Source: Sulfurimonas sp. C5
GTDB lineage: Bacteria > Campylobacterota > Campylobacteria > Campylobacterales > Sulfurimonadaceae
Reading direction: 5' to 3'
DNA length: 64,000 nt
Assembly (NCBI RefSeq): GCF_029872055.1
Contig: NZ_JARXNQ010000003.1
Coordinates: 124,001 to 188,000, forward strand
This document shows positions 2,064 to 41,217 of the stretch, one piece after another (position 1 is the stretch's first letter; every line of letters starts with the position of its first letter). The translations under genes were made by a program, and so were the position numbers. The notes under the pieces are model-generated. The model was not told the origin of the DNA. It searched no databases and saw only the letters and a list, made by a program, of their open reading frames with translations.

Positions 2064-3974
2064 ATGACTGACATTAATGAAATTATAGTCCAAAACTTCC
2101 AAAAAAATGTCCAATACCTGCAGATCAACCATCGTGCGATTTACGAAAAACTTCTAGCTTACGAGCATTATGTAAGTCAAAACAATATCGCTGAAAATTT
2201 TACATTAAGTTATGAAAACGGTGGTTTTGATATTCTCAACTTACACTCCAATAATTACCTCTATCAACAACAAAGTCAACAGCTCATTCAAATCATGCAG
2301 GAAAGTGTCAATTTTCAAAAAAATGAAAATGTGTTTGAAACCTTTAAAGTTCTGCCAAAAACACCAGAGACGAAAGGATACGATTTTGTTTTTGATCTGT
2401 TTGAAAAAACAAAAAATCAAGAGCTTGAAAAAATATATAAATTTATCTTTTTCGGCACTGGTTTACACATTAATCCAATCGCTGAGAAAATAAATGCTGA
2501 ATTTTACCTCATCATTGAAGACAACATTGAACTCTTTCGTCTCTCTTTGTTTACAACAAAATATTTTGAACTAGCAGATAAAGCAAAACTTTTATTTGCT
2601 ATTGCTTCAGACAAAAGTGAGTTTGAAATCATCACAAAAAAATTTTTAGATGAAGCTTTCTATTACAATCAGTATATAAAATTTTTCGAATCTATTTTTC
2701 ATTCTGATGATAAAGTTAAGCAGTTTCATACAACTGTTGTAACTCAATCACATCTAAATTTCTTTTACTCTTCGATCTTAAAACAGTATACGCAGCCGCT
2801 TCAGTACCTGCAAAAAAACTATAATTTTATAAACTTAACAGCGCAACAACTTAATGAGTATTTTCAAAACAAAAGTGTGTTCTTAATCGCTCCTGGTCCA
2901 TCCTTAGATAAAAACATTGAGTTTATAAAAGAGTATCAAGACCAGTACATCATTGTAGCCCTTTCGGCAACACTAAGAACTTTAGAAACAGCAAATATCA
3001 AACCTGACATCATCACCCATTTTGACGGTTTTGAACGTAGTGCCGTTCATTTTGAAAAACTTGAGAACAAAGCATTCATCCAAGATTCTATACTACTCTT
3101 TAGTGCTAAAACACCACAAAAAATTGTCTCTATGTTTCACAAAGAGAAGCTCTTTTTCTTTGAAAGCGGTACCAATTACAAGCAAGGTTTTGGAGAGTTA
3201 AGTGCTTTTTGTGCAGGTTCATCAACTTACCTTATTTTAGTTGCTCTTGGATTTAAAGAAATTTTTCTTATCGGACTTGATCTAGCACTTGAACAAACAA
3301 CATTAAAAACTCATAGTGATGCTTATACTTATACACTTGATGCACAACAAAAAGATGATACTCTCAGTTTTCGTGATTCCATTATAGAATTAGAAGGAAA
3401 TCTGCGACCACTCGTCAAATCAACTCCTAATTTTTCTCTTTCTGTTAATGCTATGAATGAAATTTCCTTGGGACTCAAACAGCCGTATCAAAATATTTAT
3501 AACTTCAATGACGGTGCAAAACTACAAAACACTATAGCGGTTTCTTCCGGATCTTTAGAGCTGCAAAAGCACTCGAAAAAGTCACTCGAAGAGCTACAAA
3601 AGCTTTTTATCCGAAACAGTGCCCAATCTTTGACTCAAAAGGAACAAAAGTTCCTTTCTACAATTGCAGAAAAAACTCAAGAAAAAATCGAAATACTAAA
3701 ACTGTTTTCATCTGAACATTATGCTACTAAAGAACTATTTCTCAGTGCCCTTATACAACTTAAGAACGATCTTTGCTTGTGTGATGAAAAAGAGTGTGAA
3801 GTGCTTTCAATATTACTTGAACACTATCTCAAATTTGTATATGGATTTATCTTTGATGCATGCAATACACAAGAGTTCAATCCAAATATAGATGAGATAC
3901 AGCTACACTTAACAAACAATCTTTTAGAGATTTTAGAAGAGTTTATACAACATTTTAAAGAGAGCTGGATTTGA
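2064..3974 (+). CDS. Maf-family flagellin glycosyltransferase, paralog 1
   Basis: A 636-residue motility accessory factor (DUF115 / MAF_flag10). Such proteins transfer pseudaminic or legionaminic acid to Ser/Thr of flagellin before export. Seen here: an N-terminal domain starting MTDINEIIVQNFQKN, the IFFGTGLHI and LIIEDNIELFRLSLF segments near residues 128-170, the APGPSLDKNIEFI glycine-proline-serine loop near 277, DIITHFDGFE near 315, and an IGLDLALE segment near 410. The helical C-terminus (about 490-636) is variable. Compared with the next two copies, the His-rich THxxxHIH-like motif after IGLDLA is degraded here (THSDAYTY). It is the first of three tandem copies, each overlapping the next by 4 bases. 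Confidence 0.85.
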   Translation: MTDINEIIVQNFQKNVQYLQINHRAIYEKLLAYEHYVSQNNIAENFTLSYENGGFDILNLHSNNYLYQQQSQQLIQIMQESVNFQKNENVFETFKVLPKTPETKGYDFVFDLFEKTKNQELEKIYKFIFFGTGLHINPIAEKINAEFYLIIEDNIELFRLSLFTTKYFELADKAKLLFAIASDKSEFEIITKKFLDEAFYYNQYIKFFESIFHSDDKVKQFHTTVVTQSHLNFFYSSILKQYTQPLQYLQKNYNFINLTAQQLNEYFQNKSVFLIAPGPSLDKNIEFIKEYQDQYIIVALSATLRTLETANIKPDIITHFDGFERSAVHFEKLENKAFIQDSILLFSAKTPQKIVSMFHKEKLFFFESGTNYKQGFGELSAFCAGSSTYLILVALGFKEIFLIGLDLALEQTTLKTHSDAYTYTLDAQQKDDTLSFRDSIIELEGNLRPLVKSTPNFSLSVNAMNEISLGLKQPYQNIYNFNDGAKLQNTIAVSSGSLELQKHSKKSLEELQKLFIRNSAQSLTQKEQKFLSTIAEKTQEKIEILKLFSSEHYATKELFLSALIQLKNDLCLCDEKECEVLSILLEHYLKFVYGFIFDACNTQEFNPNIDEIQLHLTNNLLEILEEFIQHFKESWI

Positions 3975-5965
3975 CAGATATTAATGCAAAAGTAGCACAA
4001 AACTTTCATGAAAATATAGAATATTTACAACAACATCATCCAAAAGTATTTGAAAAGCTTTCTGCATTTGACATTGCTGTTGAAAACGGCCATTATAAAG
4101 AAAAATATGAGCTTATTTTTGAAAACGATAATTTTGATGTATTGGAGCATGCAACCCAAAAATTTCTTTATGACAAACAAACTTCTTACCATACTGAAAA
4201 ATCTTTGCATAGTGTAGATTACAGTACTGAAAACAACTGTTTTGAGGCTTTTATCAGACAAGACTACACGGAAGATGAGATTAAAGATTTTAAACAACTC
4301 CAAACAAAAGATCCTCTAGAGTCACATCTGCCTTACATTGCAGATATTATTCACATAACCAACCAAAGAGAAAAAAAACTTTTAAACACAATAGATAAAT
4401 ATATTTTCTTCGGTGTCGGACTCGGTTTACATATTGAAGCAATTGCAGAACATATACAAGCAAAAATGTATCTTATAGTTGAAGATGATTTAGAACTCTT
4501 TAGATTATCTCTTTTTTGCATCAATTATAAAAATTTAGCAAAAACAGCAAAGCTTTTTTTTGCTATTTTTGAAGATGATTCGGAATTTGCCCATATTTGT
4601 GAAAACTTTTTAAAAGAGTCTTATTACTTTAACCACTATATAAAATATTTTCAATTACTCAGTCATTCAGAAGTAAAAGCAAATCATTTTTATTTGGCAC
4701 TTTCAAGTCAAGCTGAACTGAAATTTTTATTTCACAACTATCTTCGTACCCTATCTATACCGTTAGAAACATTTTCTCAAGGATATTCGATTATTGAAAA
4801 AAATCTCAATTTCAATACTGAGTATTTTCAAAACAAACCCTTCTTATTCATTGCCAGTGGACCATCACTGCAAAAAAATATAGATGCACTCTTACAAAAT
4901 AAAGACAAGTTCATCATAGTTGCTGTTTCTTCCTCTTTGAACTTCCTTGAGAAGTATCAAATTCAGCCGCACATTGTTTTACATCTTGATCCATTTGAGA
5001 TTAGTGCCACTCCATTTGAAAGATTAGACTCTCTCTCTTTTTTAGATAATTCACTTATTTTTCTATCTGCTCATGCATCAAGAAAAGTATACTCGTTATT
5101 AAACAAAGAAAATATTTATGTTTTTGAAGCAGGTTCTGCATATAAAACAGATGCTTTAAATGTTTCATCTTCCTGCGTCGGTTCCTTAGGATATCTTTTA
5201 CTTACTGTTCTTAAAGTACAAAAACTCTATTTTTTAGGACTTGATTTGGCAGTAGATAACGAAACGGGTTCTAGTCATATCAATACACATATTCATGAAA
5301 AAACTTTAGAATTAAAAGACTCTTTTCAAAATGACACAAATGAGACACTCTCGTATTATGATGACCTCGTCCAGATAAAAGGGAATCAGAGAGAAAAAGT
5401 TTTTACGACACCGCACTTCTTTACTTCCGTCAATCTAATAAATAATTATTTTGCGACTATTGTAAAACCATCTCAACAGTTTTATAATCTTAGTGATGGT
5501 GCTTATTTCCAAAAAACACAAGCTTTGACGTTTAAAGAGTTAAAAGATCTTCCTGATTTACCGGAGTCAATAGAGAGAGAGCTTAAAACACTTCTTGAAG
5601 CACACACACTCCATTCACTCAATGAAAATGAACTAAAATCCCTTAAAAGAAAACTAAAATTTTGTAAAAAGCTTCAATCACAATTACAAAATATTAAACC
5701 GAATAATACAACACCGCTCTCCTATGTTAAAACAATACAACAGTTAATCACTGGGGATGAAAATCTCTATAAATATGAATTAGCTCGTGTATTAGATAGT
5801 TATTTATACTATATCCTTAACTTTATCTATGACTATCTAAACAATCCAAAAATACCCCAGGAAGATTTTCAGCATATAGATCAACTTTTTAAACAACATC
5901 TTGTTGAACTGATATCTGTTTATCAGAATTATTTACACAAAGCTCTCGAAGGAAACAATCAATGA
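3971..5965 (+). CDS. Maf-family flagellin glycosyltransferase, paralog 2
   Basis: A 664-residue copy with the same architecture: IFFGVGLGLHI and LIVEDDLELFRLSLF (about 140-180), ASGPSLQKNIDALL near 295, HLDPFEISA near 335, and LGLDLAVD followed by a His-rich SSHINTHIHEKT stretch near 420-440. The start is a TTG that overlaps the stop of paralog 1; it is chosen because TTG-ACA-GAT gives MTDINAKVAQNF, matching the start of paralog 1, and no in-frame ATG fits. Membership of the operon implies coupled translation. The three Mafs are clearly diverged, suggesting different sites or sugars rather than recent duplication. Confidence 0.85.
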   Translation: MTDINAKVAQNFHENIEYLQQHHPKVFEKLSAFDIAVENGHYKEKYELIFENDNFDVLEHATQKFLYDKQTSYHTEKSLHSVDYSTENNCFEAFIRQDYTEDEIKDFKQLQTKDPLESHLPYIADIIHITNQREKKLLNTIDKYIFFGVGLGLHIEAIAEHIQAKMYLIVEDDLELFRLSLFCINYKNLAKTAKLFFAIFEDDSEFAHICENFLKESYYFNHYIKYFQLLSHSEVKANHFYLALSSQAELKFLFHNYLRTLSIPLETFSQGYSIIEKNLNFNTEYFQNKPFLFIASGPSLQKNIDALLQNKDKFIIVAVSSSLNFLEKYQIQPHIVLHLDPFEISATPFERLDSLSFLDNSLIFLSAHASRKVYSLLNKENIYVFEAGSAYKTDALNVSSSCVGSLGYLLLTVLKVQKLYFLGLDLAVDNETGSSHINTHIHEKTLELKDSFQNDTNETLSYYDDLVQIKGNQREKVFTTPHFFTSVNLINNYFATIVKPSQQFYNLSDGAYFQKTQALTFKELKDLPDLPESIERELKTLLEAHTLHSLNENELKSLKRKLKFCKKLQSQLQNIKPNNTTPLSYVKTIQQLITGDENLYKYELARVLDSYLYYILNFIYDYLNNPKIPQEDFQHIDQLFKQHLVELISVYQNYLHKALEGNNQ

Positions 5966-7947
5966 ATGATATAGAAAATAAAGCTTTAGAACGTTACACA
6001 AAAAACAGTGAATTTTTAGCTCAAAACCATCCTGACGTATTTAATAAGATCAAAATACTTGAGGATGGAATCAATCATGGTCTTTATCAAGAGAAGTACG
6101 CCTTAGAATATCAAAATAAATATTTTGATGTTGTAGATTTAAAAAGCGGTCAATTTTTATATAATACCAATAGCATCCAAGTGTCTGATCAGTTAACTTC
6201 TCTTGTTAATTTCGATAAAAATTCTTATCTCTTTGAAGGTTTTGGTCTTTATTATAATTATGAACAAGGAAAAGATTCTTTTTTAGATACTGCCAAAGGA
6301 GCAGAAGGAATTTATCCCCTAATGACATACTATATCGATAACTTGCCTAAAAATGCGACTATGAATGAGATCGAAAAATTCATTTTTATTGGTGTCGGTT
6401 TAGGGCTCCATATTCTGCAAGTTGATAAAAAAATTCATGCTGAAGAGTATTTCATTATTGAAGATGATTTAGAGCTGTTTCGTCTTTCGCTTTTTACAAC
6501 TCCGTATTATAAAATAAAAGGGAAACTCTCTTTTTCTATACAAGAAAAAGAGGAGCAGTTTACACGAAAATTTCAACTTTTTTTACAACTGAGCTTTTTC
6601 AGAAACAAATTTTTGAAATACTCTTATTTTCCTGCACATTCTAAAGAAAAATTTGATTTTATCAAACACTCTTTAGCATCTCAAGCCTTTTCAGTCTTCC
6701 CATATAAGACAAGACTTATGAAATATTTAAGACCGCTTGAATACATTAAAAATAACTATAAATTTATCAATTTATCAAAGCAATTCAAAAAATCTTCTTT
6801 AAGTGAAAAACCCTGTATAGTTCTCGGTGCTGGACCATCTTTTGAAAAACATATAGACTGGCTGAAAGAAAATCAAGATAGTTTTATCATTATAGCTGTC
6901 TCGGCCGTACTTAAAAAACTACATGAATATAATATAAAACCTGACATTGTGACACATTTGGACGGCTTCGCAATTTCTGCAAAACACTTTGAAGGTTTTG
7001 AAACGAAAAACTTTTTAAATAACAGTATTTTACTCGCCGGCAGTTTTGTACAACAAAATATTATTGACCACTTTGTCAAAACAAATGTGTATATCTATGA
7101 AGAAAATCAAACAAATTACCATAAAGGTTTTGATTCTATCAACGGTTCGTGTGTCGGTTCAACATCAGTGGTTCATTCTGCATTATTGAATTTTGACAAA
7201 ATATACCTTTTAGGTGTTGACCTAGCAATTACAAAAGATGGACAAACTCATGTTTCATCTCATATTCATAGTAAAACTGTAGATCTTAATAAGATTAAAG
7301 AATCTCAGACGAATATCTCTCTCGCAGGCTCATTTTTTAATGTTCCAGGAAATTTAGAGAAAACTGTTTATACTAATCCTACGTTTTACGGTTCTATTTT
7401 AAATCTCAACAATATCATTCCACATGTTAAAAATGAAACTCAAACAATCTATAACTTAAGTGAAGGTGCATACTTTAGTGGTACAGAACCTTTCAAAAAT
7501 TTCGAACAACTAAGCGATAGTTTGGGATCTTATGATAAAAAAGAGATACATGCTGAAATAATGGACCTATTTCAATCTTACTCAAATGACAACTTATCAT
7601 CAGATGAGCTCAAGGAAATTGCGAAAAAACTAGAGTTTGTTACTTCTGTCAAACATATCATTACAACTTTTCAAGAAAAGAAATTTTTACATGCAAATCA
7701 CTACCTGCATGCATTAATATCTCTGATGTTGGATATTCTTCAACCGCCAACTATCACAACTGCAAACCTAATCGATATTTATGACCAGTTCTTTAGTTAT
7801 TCCATGCCTTTAATCTTTGATCTTTTTAATACCAAAGAGTTAAAAGAACAAAATAAACATATAGAGAATATTAATAAACTTATTATTGACGAAATGATGG
7901 AAGTTGTAACTATTTATGAAGAAAAAATAACGGAGTTTTTAAACTAA
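5962..7947 (+). CDS. Maf-family flagellin glycosyltransferase, paralog 3
   Basis: A 661-residue third Maf copy: IFIGVGLGLHI and FIIEDDLELFRLSLF (about 140-180), GAGPSFEKHIDWL near 290, HLDGFAISAKHFE near 335, and LGVDLAI with THVSSHIHSKT near 420-435. The ATG overlaps the stop of paralog 2 (ATGA). It is the last gene of the operon and converges on the flagellin gene, with a strong hairpin between them. Flagellin is the expected acceptor, by family knowledge; which copy acts on which site cannot be read from sequence. Confidence 0.85.
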   Translation: MNDIENKALERYTKNSEFLAQNHPDVFNKIKILEDGINHGLYQEKYALEYQNKYFDVVDLKSGQFLYNTNSIQVSDQLTSLVNFDKNSYLFEGFGLYYNYEQGKDSFLDTAKGAEGIYPLMTYYIDNLPKNATMNEIEKFIFIGVGLGLHILQVDKKIHAEEYFIIEDDLELFRLSLFTTPYYKIKGKLSFSIQEKEEQFTRKFQLFLQLSFFRNKFLKYSYFPAHSKEKFDFIKHSLASQAFSVFPYKTRLMKYLRPLEYIKNNYKFINLSKQFKKSSLSEKPCIVLGAGPSFEKHIDWLKENQDSFIIIAVSAVLKKLHEYNIKPDIVTHLDGFAISAKHFEGFETKNFLNNSILLAGSFVQQNIIDHFVKTNVYIYEENQTNYHKGFDSINGSCVGSTSVVHSALLNFDKIYLLGVDLAITKDGQTHVSSHIHSKTVDLNKIKESQTNISLAGSFFNVPGNLEKTVYTNPTFYGSILNLNNIIPHVKNETQTIYNLSEGAYFSGTEPFKNFEQLSDSLGSYDKKEIHAEIMDLFQSYSNDNLSSDELKEIAKKLEFVTSVKHIITTFQEKKFLHANHYLHALISLMLDILQPPTITTANLIDIYDQFFSYSMPLIFDLFNTKELKEQNKHIENINKLIIDEMMEVVTIYEEKITEFLN

Positions 7948-29659: not shown

Positions 29660-31219
29660 TTAGGTATCACTTACTATTTTATTTTTTCCTGTTGTTTTAG
29701 CTATATATAGTAATTCGTCTACACGTTTTATCAACTGTTCTGCTGTTTCATGATCTTGCAATTGAGTTACTCCAAAACTACAGGTTAAAACATTGACTGT
29801 ATTAAAGTTGTACTGATTAACCTCATGCTTTAATTTTCCAGCTAATGTCTCTGCATCTTTTACAGATGTTTTAGGTAAAAGGATAATAAACTCCTCCCCA
29901 CCCCATCTGGCAAAAACATCACTTTCACGTATATGTGCCCTTATTAGTCCACTTAACTCTTGTAAAACTATATCACCTATATCATGACCAAAACTATCAT
30001 TAATTTTTTTAAAGTCATCTATATCAAAGAAAATAACACTTAACGCTGAGTTATATCTTCGTGATACAGACATTTTATAACATAATAAATTATCAAAACC
30101 ACGTCTGTTCAAGATACCTGTAAGAGGATCTTTTATAGCCTCTTGAGAAGCTATTTCTACTTTTTTGGTCTCTTTTCGAAAAAGGGTAAAAAATAATAAC
30201 ATTACCATAAAGTTCAATATACTTAATAGTACAAAAACTTGTGCATTTCTTTTTTGTAACAAATCCAATGTAGTGTTGTAATTGTATCCAACTATGTAAG
30301 CAACTTTTTTCTTTTCAAAATTTCGCACAGCCAAAAACGTTACAATCAAATTTTTATTGGGAGCACTGTCTAAAAAAGTATTTACTGCAAAGTTGTCCTC
30401 AGTTTTTAATTTTTCAGACACAACCGAAGATATTTTTTTGTTAATTGCCAGAATATCATCCAATGGTATTCCCATACTATTGCTCAAAATAGTTTTATCT
30501 ATACTGTATTGTCCAAAAACCGTTTTCATATAATGATTTTTTTCATCTTTAAAAACCTTGGTATCAATAACATGGTTATTTATCATAAAAAGATAAGAAG
30601 CCTTCGTGTTAATTTCCAACATATGTTCTAAAAATGCTCTAAAAGAGTATGAAATCTCTACAGTACCAACAAACTTATTATCTTTAAATATTGGATAAAC
30701 ATGTCTAAAACCGTTAAAGATACGTCCCTCTTCAAAACACTCTATAGGTTTTTTATATTGATTTACATACATAATAGACTCTCTAACACTTGCAAGTGAA
30801 TCCCCAAATTTTTCCGGTTTATGAAATCGTAAAAAACTAACAACACCAGGAAGATGAAAGTGAAGTTGTCGTACTCCAAGTGTTTTCATATACTCATACT
30901 CTTTTATATATGTTTGATAGAGTTTAGCTCTGAGTTGTGCTTGTTTTTTTAAATCGTTTGTATTGGAAGCTTCATACATAATGTCTGCGTTGATCGAATT
31001 ATTTAAAACATTAGTATGTAACACTTCCGCAAGAAGATTAAGATAATGTTTTCCTGTTTCAACCTGTATGTTTAGTTCTTTTGTTTTATGTTGTAAAAAG
31101 TTCTTTGTATCCAACTCTTTCATATAATTTACGGAAAAGTAAATCGCCACTTCCACACAACAAAACAAAATAAATGTAGTCAGAAATATATATTTGTTTT
31201 GTAATAAAAACTTTATCAT
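29660..31219 (-). CDS. Membrane diguanylate cyclase with dCache-type sensor
   Basis: A 519-residue two-helix membrane protein: helix 1 about 12-30, a periplasmic sensor (31-325), helix 2 about 328-350, then a GGDEF domain (about 355-515). The active site is GGEEF, and the inhibitory RxxD (RESD) lies five residues upstream, so c-di-GMP feedback is likely. The sensor has [22 protein letters not shown], a pattern I know from Cache-type sensors of Sulfurimonas and Arcobacter. It overlaps tsaD by 4 bases. The exopolysaccharide locus 3 kb away would be a natural c-di-GMP target, though this is only inference. Confidence 0.9.
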
Positions 31220-34201: not shown

Positions 34202-35182
34202 ATGCATGTTTTAATAACTGGCGGTGCCGGTTTTATAGGTTCAAATTTGGCAGCATATCATCTTGAGAAAGGTGATAAAGTGCACGTTGTAGACAATCTC
34301 TCTACTGGACGGCTAAAAAATATAAGCTCCTTAATGGAAAGTTCCCGTTTTATTTTTACTGAAGCCAACCTTCTAGAATGGGATGAGTTAGACAAAGCCG
34401 TAAGTTGGGCAGATCGCATCTACCACATGGCAGCAGTAGTAGGTGTTTTTAGAGTTTTAAAAGAACCAATTGCTACGTTGGCAACCAATATTGCCGGTTG
34501 TGAACGTCTTCTACGTGCTTTACATAAAAGTTCGTGGGATACAAAACTCATTATCGCTTCTACATCAGAAGTTTACGGTAATCGTCCTGATGACAAACCG
34601 CTGCATGAAGAGATGGAACTGCTTATTAGTCCCGGTCACAATACACGCTGGAATTATGCAGTAAGTAAAATAGCTGATGAAGCGTTTGCTCTTTCATATG
34701 CAAGAGAGTATGATATGGATATTACGGTCGTTAGATTTTTTAATGTCATAGGTCCTAACCAAACCGGTAAATACGGTATGGTTGTTCCTCGTTTTATCAA
34801 ACAAGCACTTAACGATGATCCTATTACCGTATACGGTGACGGTACACAAGTAAGAGCTTTTATGGATGTTCGTGATTGTGTAAACATACTGCAAAGACTT
34901 GCTGACAATTATAGTTCAAAGGGGGAAACTGTGAATGTAGGAGCACCACAGGAGATCACAATCGGCTCACTTGCCCGCATGGTTAAAGAGCTTGCAAATA
35001 GTGATTCGGAAATCACATACACTTCTTACGATGATGCTTACGGTGTAGATTTTGAAGAGATATATCATCGTAAACCGGAACTTTCAAAGCTACACAGGCT
35101 TACAGGTTATACTCCTGAATGGAGTCTAAAAGAAACAATATCATTTCTTATTCAAAATCAACTTCAAAAGACAAAGGATTAA
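34202..35182 (+). CDS. NAD-dependent sugar epimerase/dehydratase (extended SDR)
   Basis: A 326-residue nucleotide-sugar enzyme. The NAD site TGGAGFIGSNLA is at residues 6-17; the catalytic Tyr-Lys pair is in NYAVSKIADE near 155. VVPRFIKQALNDDPITVYGDGTQVR-like sequence near 195-220 resembles UDP-glucuronate decarboxylase and UDP-glucose/UDP-GlcNAc 4-epimerases. It probably shapes the sugar donor for the next gene's glycosyltransferase, from which it is separated by 2 bases. A C4-epimerase acting with the dehydrogenase at 39641, as in Vi-antigen synthesis (TviB plus TviC), is an attractive reading. Confidence 0.82.
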   Translation: MHVLITGGAGFIGSNLAAYHLEKGDKVHVVDNLSTGRLKNISSLMESSRFIFTEANLLEWDELDKAVSWADRIYHMAAVVGVFRVLKEPIATLATNIAGCERLLRALHKSSWDTKLIIASTSEVYGNRPDDKPLHEEMELLISPGHNTRWNYAVSKIADEAFALSYAREYDMDITVVRFFNVIGPNQTGKYGMVVPRFIKQALNDDPITVYGDGTQVRAFMDVRDCVNILQRLADNYSSKGETVNVGAPQEITIGSLARMVKELANSDSEITYTSYDDAYGVDFEEIYHRKPELSKLHRLTGYTPEWSLKETISFLIQNQLQKTKD

Positions 35183-35184
35183 TT

Positions 35185-36573
35185 ATGGCAGCAGCCTCAT
35201 ATTTTGTAGTAAGTCCAAACCTGGTTTTAAGTGTACTAGGTTTACTTCACGGTCCGGATGAAACAGTCCCTACACCAGCTGAAAACTGGCAAGATGCAAC
35301 TATTAGTGTTGTCATACCTGCTCTCAATGAAGAGAAAAACATTGTATTATGTCTTGACTCTGTTCTCAATCAAACCATAAAACCAAACAATATTATCCTT
35401 ATTGATGATGGCAGTACGGATAATACAGTCGCTTATGCAGAAGCATTTTGTAAAGAAAATGATATAGACATTCTCATAATTAAACGGGACCATCCAATAG
35501 GAAAAACACCTACCATAAAACGTCAAGCCCGTGAATTCCTCTCTGATGTTGAATTTATCTTAGATGCAGATACCATACTTGAATCTGAAAACTATATTGA
35601 AAGAACTGTTCAAGAACTTTATCAAGGTGTTGGAATTGCTTCAGCATGTGGAACGATTGTACCTACAAAAGACAAAAATAGAAAAGCGATGATCCAAGAG
35701 CCAAAAGTTCAAAAGTTCCTACAAAACAATCCTGAAGTCAATCTGCTTCTAAAACAAGATTGGTTGCATATACTTGCAAGAAAGTCAAGTAATATTTACC
35801 GTGAAGTACTTTATATGTATCTGCAACAATTTATATATCATGGTCAAATGGTCTATTTTGGTTCAATTACCAACCCAGTCGGTTGTGCAGTAGCCTACCG
35901 TCGTCAATATGTACAAGAACTTTTTGATCAATATGAACCGATATTCGGTGATGATTTAACAAACTCAGAAGACATTTTCATAGGATTTGCTCTGTTAAAG
36001 CATGGTTATCGCAACATCCAACTAACGGATGTTTTTGCCCGATCGCAAGAACCAGAGATAGAAGATATTCCTCATGAAATCTATATGTGGTCATCCTCTT
36101 TTTATCAAAGTTGTTACTATTTTGATGACTTAGTAAGAAGCCCTTTAAAATCATTCAAAAGTTATCTTCATCACAGAAAAACAGAGAAACTTTATGGAGA
36201 TGAGATTCGAAAACGACGTAAAGTTCAAGAAGCATATCGTCAACAATTCGGTGATGACGTTACTACTCAGTATGGACGACCAATGGGCTGGGTTATTTTT
36301 GTCTCTTTACTTGAAAAAACACTCTTTCCAAGTACACTTTTTGTTATGATTGCTTTAGGTTTATGGGAAGCTTTAGGTTTAACTCTGGTTTTTGAATCGT
36401 TGATTTCCATCTCAATTTTAATGTATATCAATAAAGGAAAAAGATTAGAATACTTCTTCAAAGGTATCTTAGTCACTCCGATCAGATACACTACGATTTT
36501 ATTTGACTTTGCAACCATGATTATATTTGCCAAAGATATTTGGTTTACGAAAAAGAAAGGATGGAGAAAATGA
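35185..36573 (+). CDS. Membrane family-2 glycosyltransferase (PgaC-like position)
   Basis: The start at 35185 (AAAGGA before ATG) is preferred over an earlier frame start inside the epimerase; this gives 462 residues. GT-A domain: ISVVIPALNEEKNI near 39, LIDDGSTDNT near 72, an FILDADT DxD motif near 128 and TNSEDIFIGFALLKHGY near 270. Three or four C-terminal membrane helices (about 370-455) follow. The QxxRW motif expected in processive synthases (PgaC, BcsA) is not evident; the residues after TNSED read RSQEPEIEDIP. It overlaps the fusion gene by 4 bases. It probably polymerises the chain at the inner membrane. Confidence 0.82.
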   Translation: MAAASYFVVSPNLVLSVLGLLHGPDETVPTPAENWQDATISVVIPALNEEKNIVLCLDSVLNQTIKPNNIILIDDGSTDNTVAYAEAFCKENDIDILIIKRDHPIGKTPTIKRQAREFLSDVEFILDADTILESENYIERTVQELYQGVGIASACGTIVPTKDKNRKAMIQEPKVQKFLQNNPEVNLLLKQDWLHILARKSSNIYREVLYMYLQQFIYHGQMVYFGSITNPVGCAVAYRRQYVQELFDQYEPIFGDDLTNSEDIFIGFALLKHGYRNIQLTDVFARSQEPEIEDIPHEIYMWSSSFYQSCYYFDDLVRSPLKSFKSYLHHRKTEKLYGDEIRKRRKVQEAYRQQFGDDVTTQYGRPMGWVIFVSLLEKTLFPSTLFVMIALGLWEALGLTLVFESLISISILMYINKGKRLEYFFKGILVTPIRYTTILFDFATMIIFAKDIWFTKKKGWRK

Positions 36574-39500
36574 GAACTCTTGTAAAATTATCCAGTATAT
36601 TCGTTTTAGGTGCCGTACTGAATGCTGCTGTACCGGAAAATGGGCTTAAGGCTGAAATGGAAGGTAGATGGAATGATGCGATCAATATTTATGAAAAAAT
36701 TGTACAAACATCTCCTGAGCGTACTGATCTTTATCTTCGTCTTGCCGATATCTATTCAAGCCAAAACAAACTTGATAAAGCAGCTCAAACTCTAAACAAA
36801 GCGATCACTGTAGATCCTAAAAATGCATTACTGTATAAAAAGCTCTCAGAAGTCTATGCAGTACAAAACAAACCGGCAGAAGCACTCAACGCTATGGAGT
36901 CTGCATTACAACTAGATGGTAACAATCCAAAGTACCTTATGGCACATGCCAAAATTGCCAACTGGAACAAAAAATTTGCTGAAGCTGTAAAAAGCCTTGA
37001 AAAACTTGTAAAAATGGAACCTAAGAACAAAGAAGCACGTCTGCTTCTTTCACGTTCTTATGACTGGCTTGGTGAACGTGAGAAAGCTCTTGCTTTTTAT
37101 AAAAACTATTTAAAAAACAATCCTGACAATCTTCGTGCAAGACTTGAACTTGCAGATATTCAAGAACTGTTTGGAGATATAAACGGTGCAAATAAAACAC
37201 TTGAAGTAGGATATAAATCTCTAAAAAAGGCTAAAAAGCCCGTCGCTCAAACACAAACACAAGCTAATGTTGAAGTTCCTATATTGCTCTATCACTGTGT
37301 AGATGCAGTACCTCAGAATGATTACTGGATAGCGACAGACGAATTTGATGCACAGATGCAAACACTTGATGACAACAACTACACATCTGTTTCAATGAAA
37401 GATGTTTACAATCATCAAAACTATGGTACAAAACTTCCGGAAAAACCGATAGTAATCACATTTGACGACGGATGTAAAAATCTTTATACGGATGTTTTTC
37501 CTATTTTGAAAAAACATAAATATATTGCAGAGGTATATCTCATTACAGAAGCTATAGGAGATTCTGAAGCGGAGAGAATTGACAATGCAAAGGGAGACGA
37601 TGCGACTAAACTGGGTGAGACAGGTGAAAACTCCCTAACAGAATATTTAGTTTGGCCAGAGGTCAAAGAGATGGCTGATTATGGTATTGTATTTGGATCA
37701 CATACAAAAGCCCACCCTTATATGAGTCAAGTAGATGATGCTAATGCAACATACCAACTACTCTCTTCAAAACTGGCGATTGTAGCGAATACAAATACGG
37801 ATGTTACATCGTTTTCATACCCTTTTGGGGATGGAGCAGCTAAAAAAGAGCTTCATACTCTTTTAGAAAAATATGGATTTTTGACAGCTGTAGCAGCTGA
37901 AGGGGGTATTTTACAAAGTAGTGATGCTGATTTTCTAAACCTTCCAAGAGTCAGTATATACGGTGTACACCCTGCAATAGATCCAAAAAGTAAAGGTGTC
38001 TCTGTTATCCCAGATCCAACGCGACCTGAAGATCTATTTATGGCAAAACTGCAACCTGATGAAGCTGAACAAAAGTTTGAACTATGTAATAAATATACTG
38101 CCCTCGGGCAACACGATAAAGCGCTTGAAGCGATCAATAGATCGGTTGAGCTAAAACCGAAAAACCTCCGTTACCTGGTAAAAAGACTCGAAACTGCAGG
38201 TTCGGCAGACAAAATGAATATCGCTTATGACAGTGCATTACGGGCATATGAACTTGATCCTGATAATGATGAACGCTTGTTAGCTCTTGCACAAACTGCT
38301 GTATGGGCAAATCATCTTGATGATGCCACTATATACTACAAACTGTACACAGAAAAACATCCTGAAAACAAAGAGGCTAAAATCGAGTATGCCCAGGTAG
38401 AATCATGGAAAGGTGCCTATGCATGTGCATTTGAAATACTTGAGTCTTACAAAAAAACTTTTGGGGAAGATGAAGTATACTTACAAACTAAAGCGGATAT
38501 CTTAACTTGGGCAAATCGTCCAACTAAAGCTTTCCCGATTTTAAACGCTCAATTAGCTAAAGATCAAAATAACTATAATACTAACTTTACAAATACTGTC
38601 GCTTTATATAAAGATGGTCAGATCCTCGAATCTCTGGAGAGCCTTGAGAAAACAGAAAAGCTTGCACCTGATTCTGCAGACAGCAAGTTCCTAAGAAAGT
38701 TTATAACTACAGACCTTCGTCACTATGTAGGTGCAGGTGTTGCATACTCTTATGACACCGATCATATTACTACTATCGCTGGAGAATTAGAGGGGAGATA
38801 TTTCATTTCACCACTAACAAGTGTTTATGCACTCGGACATACAGACTATGTATCTTTAAGCAACTCTTCTCCAGCAATATATGCTCAAGACAATGGCTCT
38901 CTTCACGCAAAACAAAACAGTTTGCGTGCCGGAGTAAGTCATAGATTCTCTCCTGACCTTACAGGTGATTTTTCTGCGGGGGTAGCTAACGCGGCAACAC
39001 ATACAACAGGAGTTTACGGAGCAAGTCTCTCATATACCCCTATTGATGAGATGAGATTGAGTCTCGCTTATGACCATCACTACTATACAGCTACACCTAA
39101 AACGATAGGACGTGGTACTTTAGCAGACAGCATTCAGGCAACTCTTTATGCAGAACCGACGACAAGTATGTATGTAGACCTTTCTGGAGGATACAGCATA
39201 CTTTCTGATGATTACTATAACAATCGTAGTTGGAATGTCAGTCTTTCACCTACATGGGCTGTTTTACGTCGCCAGTACTGGAACTTTGATCTTGGATTAA
39301 GTGCTAATCTTGAAGGTTATGCCAAAGAGAGTGAATTTTATGATCTAGGGTATTATGCACCGAAATGGATAGAGTCTTATTATGTTACAAGTTATACAAC
39401 TTGGAAAATAAATGATGATGATAGTGTTAATCTTGCTGTCAACCTTGGAGTGTTTAAAGACAATAGTATGAGTAAATTTGTATTTGGTGGAGGTGCACAT

Positions 39501-39632
39501 TTAGAAGGTGTCTTCGGACGTTATAGAGACTGGATGTTCAAAGTTAATGCAGGGGTAGATTACAGTGCCAGATATTATGATACTCAGTACACTATATATT
39601 CAGCCGGACTCTATATCACAAGAAGATTTTAG
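36570..39632 (+). CDS. TPR / polysaccharide deacetylase / TPR / outer-membrane barrel fusion (PgaA-PgaB-like)
   Basis: A 1020-residue protein with a signal peptide (about 1-20, ending LNAA). TPR repeats follow (about 20-220), then a NodB deacetylase domain (about 240-490) with catalytic TFDDG near 301, SHTKAHP near 380 and SFSYPFG near 425, then more TPRs (about 520-700), and finally a beta-barrel (about 725-1020) ending in RRF with C-terminal Phe. In E. coli PgaA is TPR plus barrel and PgaB is a separate lipoprotein deacetylase; here both roles are one chain. It should bind the polymer, deacetylate it in the periplasm and export it. The ATG at 36570 overlaps the GT stop; earlier in-frame starts would spoil the signal peptide. 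Confidence 0.87.
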   Translation: MRTLVKLSSIFVLGAVLNAAVPENGLKAEMEGRWNDAINIYEKIVQTSPERTDLYLRLADIYSSQNKLDKAAQTLNKAITVDPKNALLYKKLSEVYAVQNKPAEALNAMESALQLDGNNPKYLMAHAKIANWNKKFAEAVKSLEKLVKMEPKNKEARLLLSRSYDWLGEREKALAFYKNYLKNNPDNLRARLELADIQELFGDINGANKTLEVGYKSLKKAKKPVAQTQTQANVEVPILLYHCVDAVPQNDYWIATDEFDAQMQTLDDNNYTSVSMKDVYNHQNYGTKLPEKPIVITFDDGCKNLYTDVFPILKKHKYIAEVYLITEAIGDSEAERIDNAKGDDATKLGETGENSLTEYLVWPEVKEMADYGIVFGSHTKAHPYMSQVDDANATYQLLSSKLAIVANTNTDVTSFSYPFGDGAAKKELHTLLEKYGFLTAVAAEGGILQSSDADFLNLPRVSIYGVHPAIDPKSKGVSVIPDPTRPEDLFMAKLQPDEAEQKFELCNKYTALGQHDKALEAINRSVELKPKNLRYLVKRLETAGSADKMNIAYDSALRAYELDPDNDERLLALAQTAVWANHLDDATIYYKLYTEKHPENKEAKIEYAQVESWKGAYACAFEILESYKKTFGEDEVYLQTKADILTWANRPTKAFPILNAQLAKDQNNYNTNFTNTVALYKDGQILESLESLEKTEKLAPDSADSKFLRKFITTDLRHYVGAGVAYSYDTDHITTIAGELEGRYFISPLTSVYALGHTDYVSLSNSSPAIYAQDNGSLHAKQNSLRAGVSHRFSPDLTGDFSAGVANAATHTTGVYGASLSYTPIDEMRLSLAYDHHYYTATPKTIGRGTLADSIQATLYAEPTTSMYVDLSGGYSILSDDYYNNRSWNVSLSPTWAVLRRQYWNFDLGLSANLEGYAKESEFYDLGYYAPKWIESYYVTSYTTWKINDDDSVNLAVNLGVFKDNSMSKFVFGGGAHLEGVFGRYRDWMFKVNAGVDYSARYYDTQYTIYSAGLYITRRF

Positions 39633-39640
39633 GGGTAATT

Positions 39641-40900
39641 GTGAATAACAAAAAAATATGTGTCATAGGGGCCGGTTATGTCGGTATCCCTTTGGCATTT
39701 GCTTTTAGTAAGCATTTTGATACAACTGTGTACACACATTCAAAAGAACATGCTGAAGAACTTCAAAACGGTTATGACAGGACTCAAAACTTTACAGCAG
39801 AAGAACTCAAAAGTTCTCAGTTAAAAGTCATCTCTGATATTCAAACTGTTAACTCTGCAAATATTTATATTATAACTGTTCCAACTCCTGTCGATGACAC
39901 ATTAAAGCCAGATCTTACACCTATTATCAGTGCTACTTCAACAGTGGCTTCTGTTTTAAAAAAAGGTGATATAGTAGTTTATGAAAGTACTGTGTTTATA
40001 GGCTGTACAGAAGAGTTATGTGTACCGATTTTAGAAAAAGAGAGTCATTTAATTTACAATGAAGAGTTCTTTTGCGGTTACTCTCCTGAAAGAATCAATC
40101 CGACAGACAAAAAAAATACTTTGGAAAATGTTGTCAAGATTGTCTCGGGTTCTACGGAACAAACAAAACAGACCTTAGTATCGCTATATGGAACAATTAT
40201 TAAAGCCGGTATTTATCAAGCACCCTCCATGAAAGTAGCTGAAGCTTCAAAACTGATGGAAAACATTCAAAGAGATGTCAATATTGCACTTATGAATGAG
40301 CTCTCTGCTCTTTATGCTAAACTTGGTATCGCTACACATGATGTGATAGAAGCTGCATCTACAAAATGGAACTTTCATAAATATTTTCCTGGACTTGTAG
40401 GAGGGCACTGTATAGGTGTCGATCCATACTATATACTTCTCAATGCTGAAAATGAGCATATCTCAATGCCTATTGTCGAACAAGCCCGTGACACTAACGA
40501 GAAAGTACCCCTGCGCATCATTAATGAGATTAAAGCTGTTCTTACAAAACGTCAACAATCTCTGGCAGGCAAGATGGTATTGCTTCTTGGCATTGCCTAC
40601 AAAGAGAATACCAACGACATACGTAATTCAAAGAGTGCTGTAGTCTATAAGCTTCTTAAAGAAAACAATGCCATTGTAGACGTAGTTGATCCTTATGCCG
40701 ATAAACAGTTGACAAAAAAATCTTATAATGTAGATCTTCTCGATGATATTCCAGATGAAAAACAGTATGACATTATTATTGTCACACTTGCTCATGACAG
40801 TTTTAAAAAGATCAATTGGAAAAAGTTAAAAAAAGAAGAAACACTTCTTTATGATATCAAAAAGCTTGTACCAAAAGAGGAGCAGGATTTTTATTTTTAG
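39641..40900 (+). CDS. UDP-N-acetylhexosamine 6-dehydrogenase (WbpA/TviB-like)
   Basis: A 419-residue NAD enzyme that oxidises the C6 of a UDP-sugar to a uronic acid. GAGYVGIPLAFAF is at residues 10-22, TVPTPVDD near 85, and the catalytic Cys in LVGGHCIGVDPYYIL near 255. This form of the Cys motif (GGHCIGVDPYY) marks UDP-GlcNAc/UDP-GalNAc dehydrogenases rather than UDP-glucose ones. The start is GTG after AGGGG. It ends the exopolysaccharide operon, 8 bases after the export fusion. Confidence 0.88.
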   Translation: MNNKKICVIGAGYVGIPLAFAFSKHFDTTVYTHSKEHAEELQNGYDRTQNFTAEELKSSQLKVISDIQTVNSANIYIITVPTPVDDTLKPDLTPIISATSTVASVLKKGDIVVYESTVFIGCTEELCVPILEKESHLIYNEEFFCGYSPERINPTDKKNTLENVVKIVSGSTEQTKQTLVSLYGTIIKAGIYQAPSMKVAEASKLMENIQRDVNIALMNELSALYAKLGIATHDVIEAASTKWNFHKYFPGLVGGHCIGVDPYYILLNAENEHISMPIVEQARDTNEKVPLRIINEIKAVLTKRQQSLAGKMVLLLGIAYKENTNDIRNSKSAVVYKLLKENNAIVDVVDPYADKQLTKKSYNVDLLDDIPDEKQYDIIIVTLAHDSFKKINWKKLKKEETLLYDIKKLVPKEEQDFYF

Positions 40901-40902
40901 GG

Positions 40903-41217
40903 TTAGACTTTAATATCTAGTTTATGAAGAGGAGGCATTGGAGGTCCTTCCTCACTTTCTTCTTCAGCGAGCTGTCGCTTTTTGTTTCTTCTATTTTTTT
41001 GATCGGCATCTTCTTTTGTATGTTCACGGTCCGGATCAACTGCTTGATTCTCTTCTGTAGGACGTACTTCAAGTACTTCGTTTTCTTTCTCTTGTACTTG
41101 TGCCTGTGCAACCATATTTTGAAAATCTACACGATTATTATGCGCATTTTGTACGGAAGTAGCTGCCGGTGTCATTTGATTGACAAAAATTGCATTTCCA
41201 ATTGGTCCAACAGCCAT
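40903..41217 (-). CDS. Conserved-looking hypothetical protein, charged tail
   Basis: A 104-residue protein, no signal or membrane segment. The N-terminus MAVGPIGNAIFVNQMTP is ordered-looking; the rest (about 45-104) is highly charged Glu/Lys/Arg and likely disordered. A family is not recognised. Antisense frames of similar length exist; this one is preferred because of its composition, a ribosome site (AGGAAG) and a 13-base gap to the RqcH gene on the same strand. A flagellar link is only a guess. Confidence 0.55.
   Translation of the reverse strand: MAVGPIGNAIFVNQMTPAATSVQNAHNNRVDFQNMVAQAQVQEKENEVLEVRPTEENQAVDPDREHTKEDADQKNRRNKKRQLAEEESEEGPPMPPLHKLDIKV

Follow-up and report, generated by a model that had tools for sequence, protein, structure and literature searches.

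The four genes at positions 34202-40900 of a 64,000-nucleotide stretch of DNA from the sulfur-cycling bacterium Sulfurimonas sp. C5 (the window) probably form a machine that makes, trims and exports an unusual exopolysaccharide. The favored reading, to which a probability of about 0.5 is given, is a synthase-dependent exopolysaccharide operon for a partly deacetylated polymer of the N-acetylxylosamine type, with substrates, a polymer identity, export and deacetylation that we infer. Computation bears out the gene order, the domains and their folds, conservation of the neighborhood, the type of SDR active site and of dehydrogenase, and insertion at a site that is empty in relatives. Comparison with relatives in other phyla points away from an acidic chain and toward a chitin-like one built of five-carbon amino sugars. 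The operon encodes an extended short-chain dehydrogenase/reductase (SDR), a membrane glycosyltransferase (GT2), a fusion protein in which a deacetylase (CE4) lies inside an exporter made of tetratricopeptide repeats (TPR) and an outer-membrane barrel, and a predicted UDP-N-acetylhexosamine (UDP-HexNAc) 6-dehydrogenase. Four consecutive plus-strand reading frames were confirmed in the list of open reading frames (ORFs). The SDR and GT2 genes are separated by 2 bases, the GT2 and fusion genes overlap by 13 bases, and the dehydrogenase gene follows after 8 bases, which bears out the single tight operon described in an earlier note on this DNA. The features are as follows.

34202..35182, plus strand: extended SDR acting on a UDP-sugar, predicted UDP-(N-acetyl)hexuronate decarboxylase (UXS/ArnA-like), 326 aa (Pfam Epimerase 6e-55; UXS1 9e-44 in the PDB; motifs)
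35185..36573, plus strand: membrane GT2, predicted polysaccharide synthase and inner-membrane translocase, 462 aa (Pfam Glycos_transf_2 4e-24; AlphaFold model)
36561..39632, plus strand: fusion protein, 1023 aa, with a signal-like N-terminus, TPR, CE4, TPR and a 16-strand outer-membrane barrel (Pfam, AlphaFold, Foldseek, two full-length relatives)
37245..38069, plus strand: CE4 deacetylase domain within the fusion (PF01522 3e-21; PgaB model; PDB matches; motifs)
38724..39632, plus strand: outer-membrane beta-barrel part of the fusion, with the C-terminal end ...TRRF (16 predicted strands; Foldseek)
39641..40900, plus strand: predicted UDP-HexNAc 6-dehydrogenase of the TviB type, 419 aa, GTG start (TviB model 377 bits)

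According to the proposed mechanism, the dehydrogenase would oxidize UDP-GlcNAc to UDP-N-acetylglucosaminuronic acid (UDP-GlcNAcA), and the SDR would decarboxylate this product to UDP-N-acetylxylosamine (UDP-XylNAc) or a close pentose derivative. The formation of UDP-XylNAc by a 6-dehydrogenase and UXNAcS is a known pathway in Bacillus cereus NVH 391-98, as described in PMC5078965, which cites Gu 2010. The membrane GT2 would polymerize UDP-XylNAc and push the chain into the periplasm, where the chain would run along the TPR arrays, lose part of its acetyl groups to the built-in CE4 domain and exit via the 16-strand barrel. In the export of poly-N-acetylglucosamine (PNAG), the TPR domain of PgaA binds the deacetylase domain of PgaB and raises its activity (PMC9384988). 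Hence, the fusion would turn an established contact into a permanent one.

The architecture of the fusion protein was evaluated via domain searches and structure prediction. The start was most likely the ATG at 36561, because the 13-base overlap between the GT2 and exporter genes was kept in Sulfurimonadaceae (L005, L006) and in Thiobacillus/Burkholderiales (L025-L028); the protein would thus be 1023 residues long and not 1020 as first given. Pfam matches in one frame placed TPRs on both sides of Polysacc_deac_1 (ORF residues 298-447, E 3e-21). The AlphaFold model, numbered for the 1020-residue version starting at 36570, had TPR helices at 23-221 and 498-716 around the deacetylase, followed by 16 strands within 719-1019. 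In the Foldseek comparison, BcsC ranked first and the PgaA barrel (4y25) had a target TM-score of 0.79. The CE4 motifs TFDDG, GSHTKAHP (HxxxH) and SYPFG were present, and the PDB matches of this domain were deacetylases, including PgaB/BpsB and IcaB-type enzymes. The domain match and the metal-binding and catalytic motifs together indicate a predicted CE4 deacetylase. Moreover, a TPR region joined to an outer-membrane barrel and a putative periplasmic polymer-modifying enzyme, here the predicted CE4 domain, are features expected of synthase-dependent systems.

Two other genera of the family each contained a full-length relative of the fusion, 50% and 43% identical to it from end to end. The same single-frame architecture in three genomes at these identities ruled out a frame error, which the earlier note had named as a possible refutation, and likewise an assembly artefact. 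The full-length fusion was found in 3 of 228 genomes of the family, and in a sample of 397 genomes of the phylum only the window's own genome carried it at full length. A third relative genome had pieces of the operon at contig ends and stops in the GT2. A single-protein scan of genome contigs with the fusion gave no matches. A reduced form was observed in the same genus as the window (G506, locus L015, 8730-12072), consisting of an SDR, a GT2 and a 332-aa barrel-only protein that had neither TPR nor deacetylase, with no adjoining dehydrogenase.

The name given earlier, a PgaA-PgaB fusion, holds as a description of function and fails as a statement of descent. The PgaB model scored 82 bits and aligned over the deacetylase part only (positions 5-144 of 621), and the residues after the CE4 domain form TPRs in the AlphaFold model, not the hydrolase domain of PgaB. 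The PgaA model scored 60 bits, arising from the TPRs, compared with a cut-off of 367, so only the barrel fold was common to PgaA. Other members of the exporter family lack a deacetylase, the GT2 is not PgaC (49 bits on the PgaC model, cut-off 422), and the operon has no PgaD gene. Membership as a simple PNAG variant was ruled out by the scores of the GT2, the exporter and the PgaB model.

UDP-xylose synthases were the closest solved structures of the SDR (UXS1 9e-44), compared with 5e-30 for WbgU and 6e-28 for WbpP. The signatures STSEVYG, RWNYAVSK and HRKP of the window SDR are common to ArnA and UXS1 and are not those of WbpP or TviC-like proteins: E. coli ArnA has STSEVYG, RWIYSVSK and HRKP, UXS1 has STSEVYG and RKP, whereas WbpP and TviC-like proteins have SSSSVYG or ASSSTYG, LSPY and RHSxA. 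All 17 operon SDRs carried [ST]SEVYG and RWxY(x)2-3K, and the conserved Arg of the HRKP region was likewise kept in 17/17 (HRCP in one, RR in others). UXS, UAXS and ArnA have Glu in place of the Ser of the epimerases (PMC7984243), and TSE is typical of decarboxylases (PMC10338323). The TSE triad, YxxxK and the conserved Arg of HRKP thus give the window SDR a putative UDP-uronate decarboxylase site. The earlier note had proposed a TviC-like partner for the dehydrogenase, which failed on score, motifs and tree. On the TviC model NF011728 the window SDR scored 132 bits, compared with 413-461 for genuine TviC-like proteins of the same bacterial family, and the operon SDRs and TviC proteins formed separate clades (98/96 and 100/100), with WbpP also lying apart from the operon SDRs.

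The other half of that pairing, a dehydrogenase of the TviB type, is probable. The best model for the window dehydrogenase was TviB (UDP-HexNAc 6-dehydrogenase) at 377 bits, below the equivalog cut-off of 592, compared with 96.5 for the UDP-glucose dehydrogenase TuaD. On the TviB model the dehydrogenase of L017 scored 415 bits and three Burkholderiales operon dehydrogenases 441-464, and where listed the operon dehydrogenases had at most 135 bits on UDP-glucose dehydrogenase models. Elsewhere in the window genome lies another TviB, which is more typical (557 bits). In Dadabacteria (L029, 12082-13404), the best match of the dehydrogenase was to the general family and an archaeal ManNAc model and not clearly TviB-like; the precursor in that lineage may differ.

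For the GT2, the start was set at 35185, as an ORF start at 35119 would overlap the SDR gene. The AlphaFold model had a mean predicted local distance difference test score of 69.5 and a predicted template modeling score of 0.71, and its fold matched hyaluronan synthase (Z 21), chitin synthase (Z 19) and BcsA (Z 17). According to this model, the GT2 is a predicted inner-membrane synthase with the fold of hyaluronan synthase and BcsA.

The distribution of the module was explored with a GT2-alignment scan. Relatives at 52-68% identity were found in Thiobacillus, other Burkholderiales, Lysobacter, Oleiagrimonas, Guyparkeria, Dadabacteria, Aminicenantes and others. Where the contig extended far enough, an SDR lay upstream of the GT2 in every locus but L030, which showed no SDR, and a TPR/barrel gene lay downstream; this order was kept across several phyla. 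None of the TPR/barrel proteins read outside Sulfurimonadaceae has a deacetylase domain; a separate CE4 gene followed the exporter gene in L025-L028 and in Oleiagrimonas (L033). Of 399 genomes sampled from the order to which the Thiobacillus genome belongs, nine had the GT2. Eight of these nine contexts were read, and SDR-GT2-TPR/barrel-CE4 was found in 8/8, followed by a GH10 gene in 7/8; the dehydrogenase stood directly after GH10 in three Burkholderiales contexts. Two lists together gave ten separate CE4-bearing operons (L025-L028, L169-L173, L176), of which nine include GH10; L174 and L175 duplicate the contigs of L025 and L026 and were not counted a second time. The window order therefore matches that of Burkholderiales, except that CE4 is located within the exporter and GH10 is missing, and the operon represents a shorter version of a six-gene arrangement (SDR, GT2, TPR/barrel, CE4, GH10, TviB-like dehydrogenase). 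No GT2 of the operon family was found on the plasmids searched, and in one sample of 398 Pseudomonadota the query genome alone matched. In Lysobacter psychrotolerans (L034, 6894-8531), an additional GT2, diverged (40% identity) but of the same family, was observed just upstream of the SDR, and the polymer of this species may need two transferases.

The GH10 proteins of the relatives were closest to xylanases (XynZ 6e-88), and both catalytic Glu residues were kept. In clan GH-A, the Asn that precedes the acid/base Glu touches the 2-OH group of the sugar in position -1. This Asn was Ala (WDVAAEA) or Ser (WDVVSE) in every copy checked, a loss to be expected if the C2 group of the sugar is altered, and TPENEMKW was changed to TPEN[AS][ML]KF. 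A role as a plant-xylan degrader was judged unlikely, as the gene is part of the operon in nine contexts and no other GH10 was found in the Thiobacillus genome searched. A widespread and undescribed family of exopolysaccharide operons may tentatively be proposed, somewhat short of an even chance, in which a chitin-like N-acetylxylosamine polymer would be partly deacetylated to cationic poly-xylosamine, with a GH10 retuned to the sugar in Burkholderiales and the deacetylase placed in the exporter in Sulfurimonadaceae.

Several observations weigh against the N-acetylxylosamine reading. The joining of the operon SDRs to ArnA and UXS1 in the tree was weakly supported, with long branches. RffG, a sugar dehydratase, also has Glu (TDE) at the key position, so the motif is better at excluding a TviC-like site than at proving decarboxylation. 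The window dehydrogenase stayed below the TviB cut-off, as given above. The CE4 part of the structure model had low confidence, because only two alignment sequences cover it. In the QxxRW region of the GT2 family, Gln (Glu in the window) and Trp were kept and Arg was Leu or Met; hence, processivity is something that we infer. Moreover, none of the four Sulfurimonadaceae genomes tested had GH10, and the xylan-like evidence comes from relatives only.

Three other products were considered. The earlier note had proposed an acidic, zwitterionic polymer, for which the dehydrogenase and a 4-epimerase would make UDP-GlcNAcA/UDP-GalNAcA and the chain would be a partly deacetylated N-acetylhexosaminuronan. 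The TviB-like dehydrogenase, the weak similarity of the SDR to the TviC model (132 bits) and a deacetylase suited to a zwitterionic product are consistent with this proposal, whereas the active-site motifs unlike those of WbpP and same-family TviC-like proteins, the PDB similarity favoring UXS and the xylanase-type hydrolase in related operons speak against it. Given the class of the SDR, it is no longer the best reading and is considered unlikely. The second candidate is a neutral xylan-type chain, built from UDP-glucuronic acid via UDP-xylose. In its favor, no solved structure is closer to the SDR than UXS1, and GH10 is a xylanase family. The CE4 family includes acetylxylan esterases, and the domain would then remove O-acetyl groups or act on another target. 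However, the operon dehydrogenases are of the UDP-HexNAc type and not the UDP-glucose type, the UDP-glucose-type dehydrogenase of a Thiobacillus genome is located away from the operon, GH10 lacks the Asn expected to bind a 2-OH, and no O-acetyltransferase was seen in the window's operon. A xylan is accordingly regarded as improbable.

A hexosamine polymer, PNAG-like or other, was likewise given a low probability, the lowest of the three. The SDR would here be an epimerase or dehydratase, and the dehydrogenase would provide a minor or side-chain sugar. The GT2 is weakly similar to PgaC/IcaA and the CE4 domain to PgaB/IcaB, and the Glu at the key SDR position is shared with sugar dehydratases; however, the GT2 fell far below the PgaC cut-off, and the SDR and GT2 genes adjoin in almost all loci read, which suggests that the SDR makes the main sugar.

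The earlier note knew of no described system with this gene set, and none was found in the literature searched, nor was anything closer found, with most subscription papers lying outside the coverage of the search. The PNAG system PgaABCD likewise has a membrane GT2, a CE4 deacetylase and a TPR/16-strand-barrel exporter, with the deacetylase acting on the TPR scaffold. The window operon differs in having the deacetylase inside the exporter, no PgaD gene, no PgaB hydrolase domain, a GT2 and an exporter of other families, and its own nucleotide-sugar genes. In Pel, a deacetylase and hydrolase act with a TPR/barrel exporter (PelA/PelB), comparable to the Burkholderiales relatives with their separate CE4 and hydrolase genes, whereas its synthase and hydrolase differ and its sugar is GalNAc (PMC12022489). 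Cellulose BcsC was the top fold match of the exporter, and BcsZC of Zymomonas demonstrates that a periplasmic enzyme can fuse to the pore (PMC7112194), although BcsZC adds a hydrolase, not a deacetylase, and the sugar pathway differs. The accessible portion of the same survey of synthase-dependent operons names the fusions BcsZC and GT-PgaB and no deacetylase-exporter fusion. The UDP-XylNAc pathway of B. cereus NVH 391-98 has the same pair of a dehydrogenase and a decarboxylating SDR, a likeness at the level of the pathway; no polymer-synthesis system is tied to the pathway in PMC5078965. Vi antigen TviB/TviC and GnaA/GnaB probably share a TviB-like dehydrogenase with the operon, whereas the active site of the window SDR is not TviC-like and the GnaB clade forms a separate branch. 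A deacetylase between the TPR arrays of its own pore would unite the PgaA-PgaB contact naturally in one protein and could serve structural studies of exopolysaccharide processing during export. If the sugar reading is true, the polymer would be a new class of matrix material (chitin without C6) in sulfur-oxidizing and other environmental bacteria, with a dedicated hydrolase on offer.

The genomic setting was examined in the 2.06 Mb genome (contig 3, family Sulfurimonadaceae). The GC content at third codon positions of the operon was 0.25-0.28, similar to its neighbors, and the composition gave no sign of foreign origin. In 10 relatives without the operon, the flanking genes cdsA and NFACT are neighbors, the site being otherwise empty (a 104-aa gene lies between them in 9/10). 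The operon was possibly gained, given its patchy distribution and the empty sites, despite the neighbor-like base composition. This 104-aa gene, at 40903-41217 in the window, had no Pfam match. No co-polymerase binding cyclic di-GMP was found in the four-gene operon and PilZ gave no match on the GT2, with a regulator encoded elsewhere being possible; hence, the operon is a less typical member of the synthase-dependent systems, which does not lower the view that it works like one. A few genes upstream, on the opposite strand (29660-31219), a membrane protein of the GGDEF type was recognized from its sequence, with a possible link to cyclic di-GMP. No RNA genes were found in the window with Rfam and ARAGORN. 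Furthermore, three tandem genes at 2064-7947 encode proteins of 636-664 aa with MptE-like/Maf-type flagellin glycosyltransferase domains and occupy the part of the window with the lowest GC content (~0.30).

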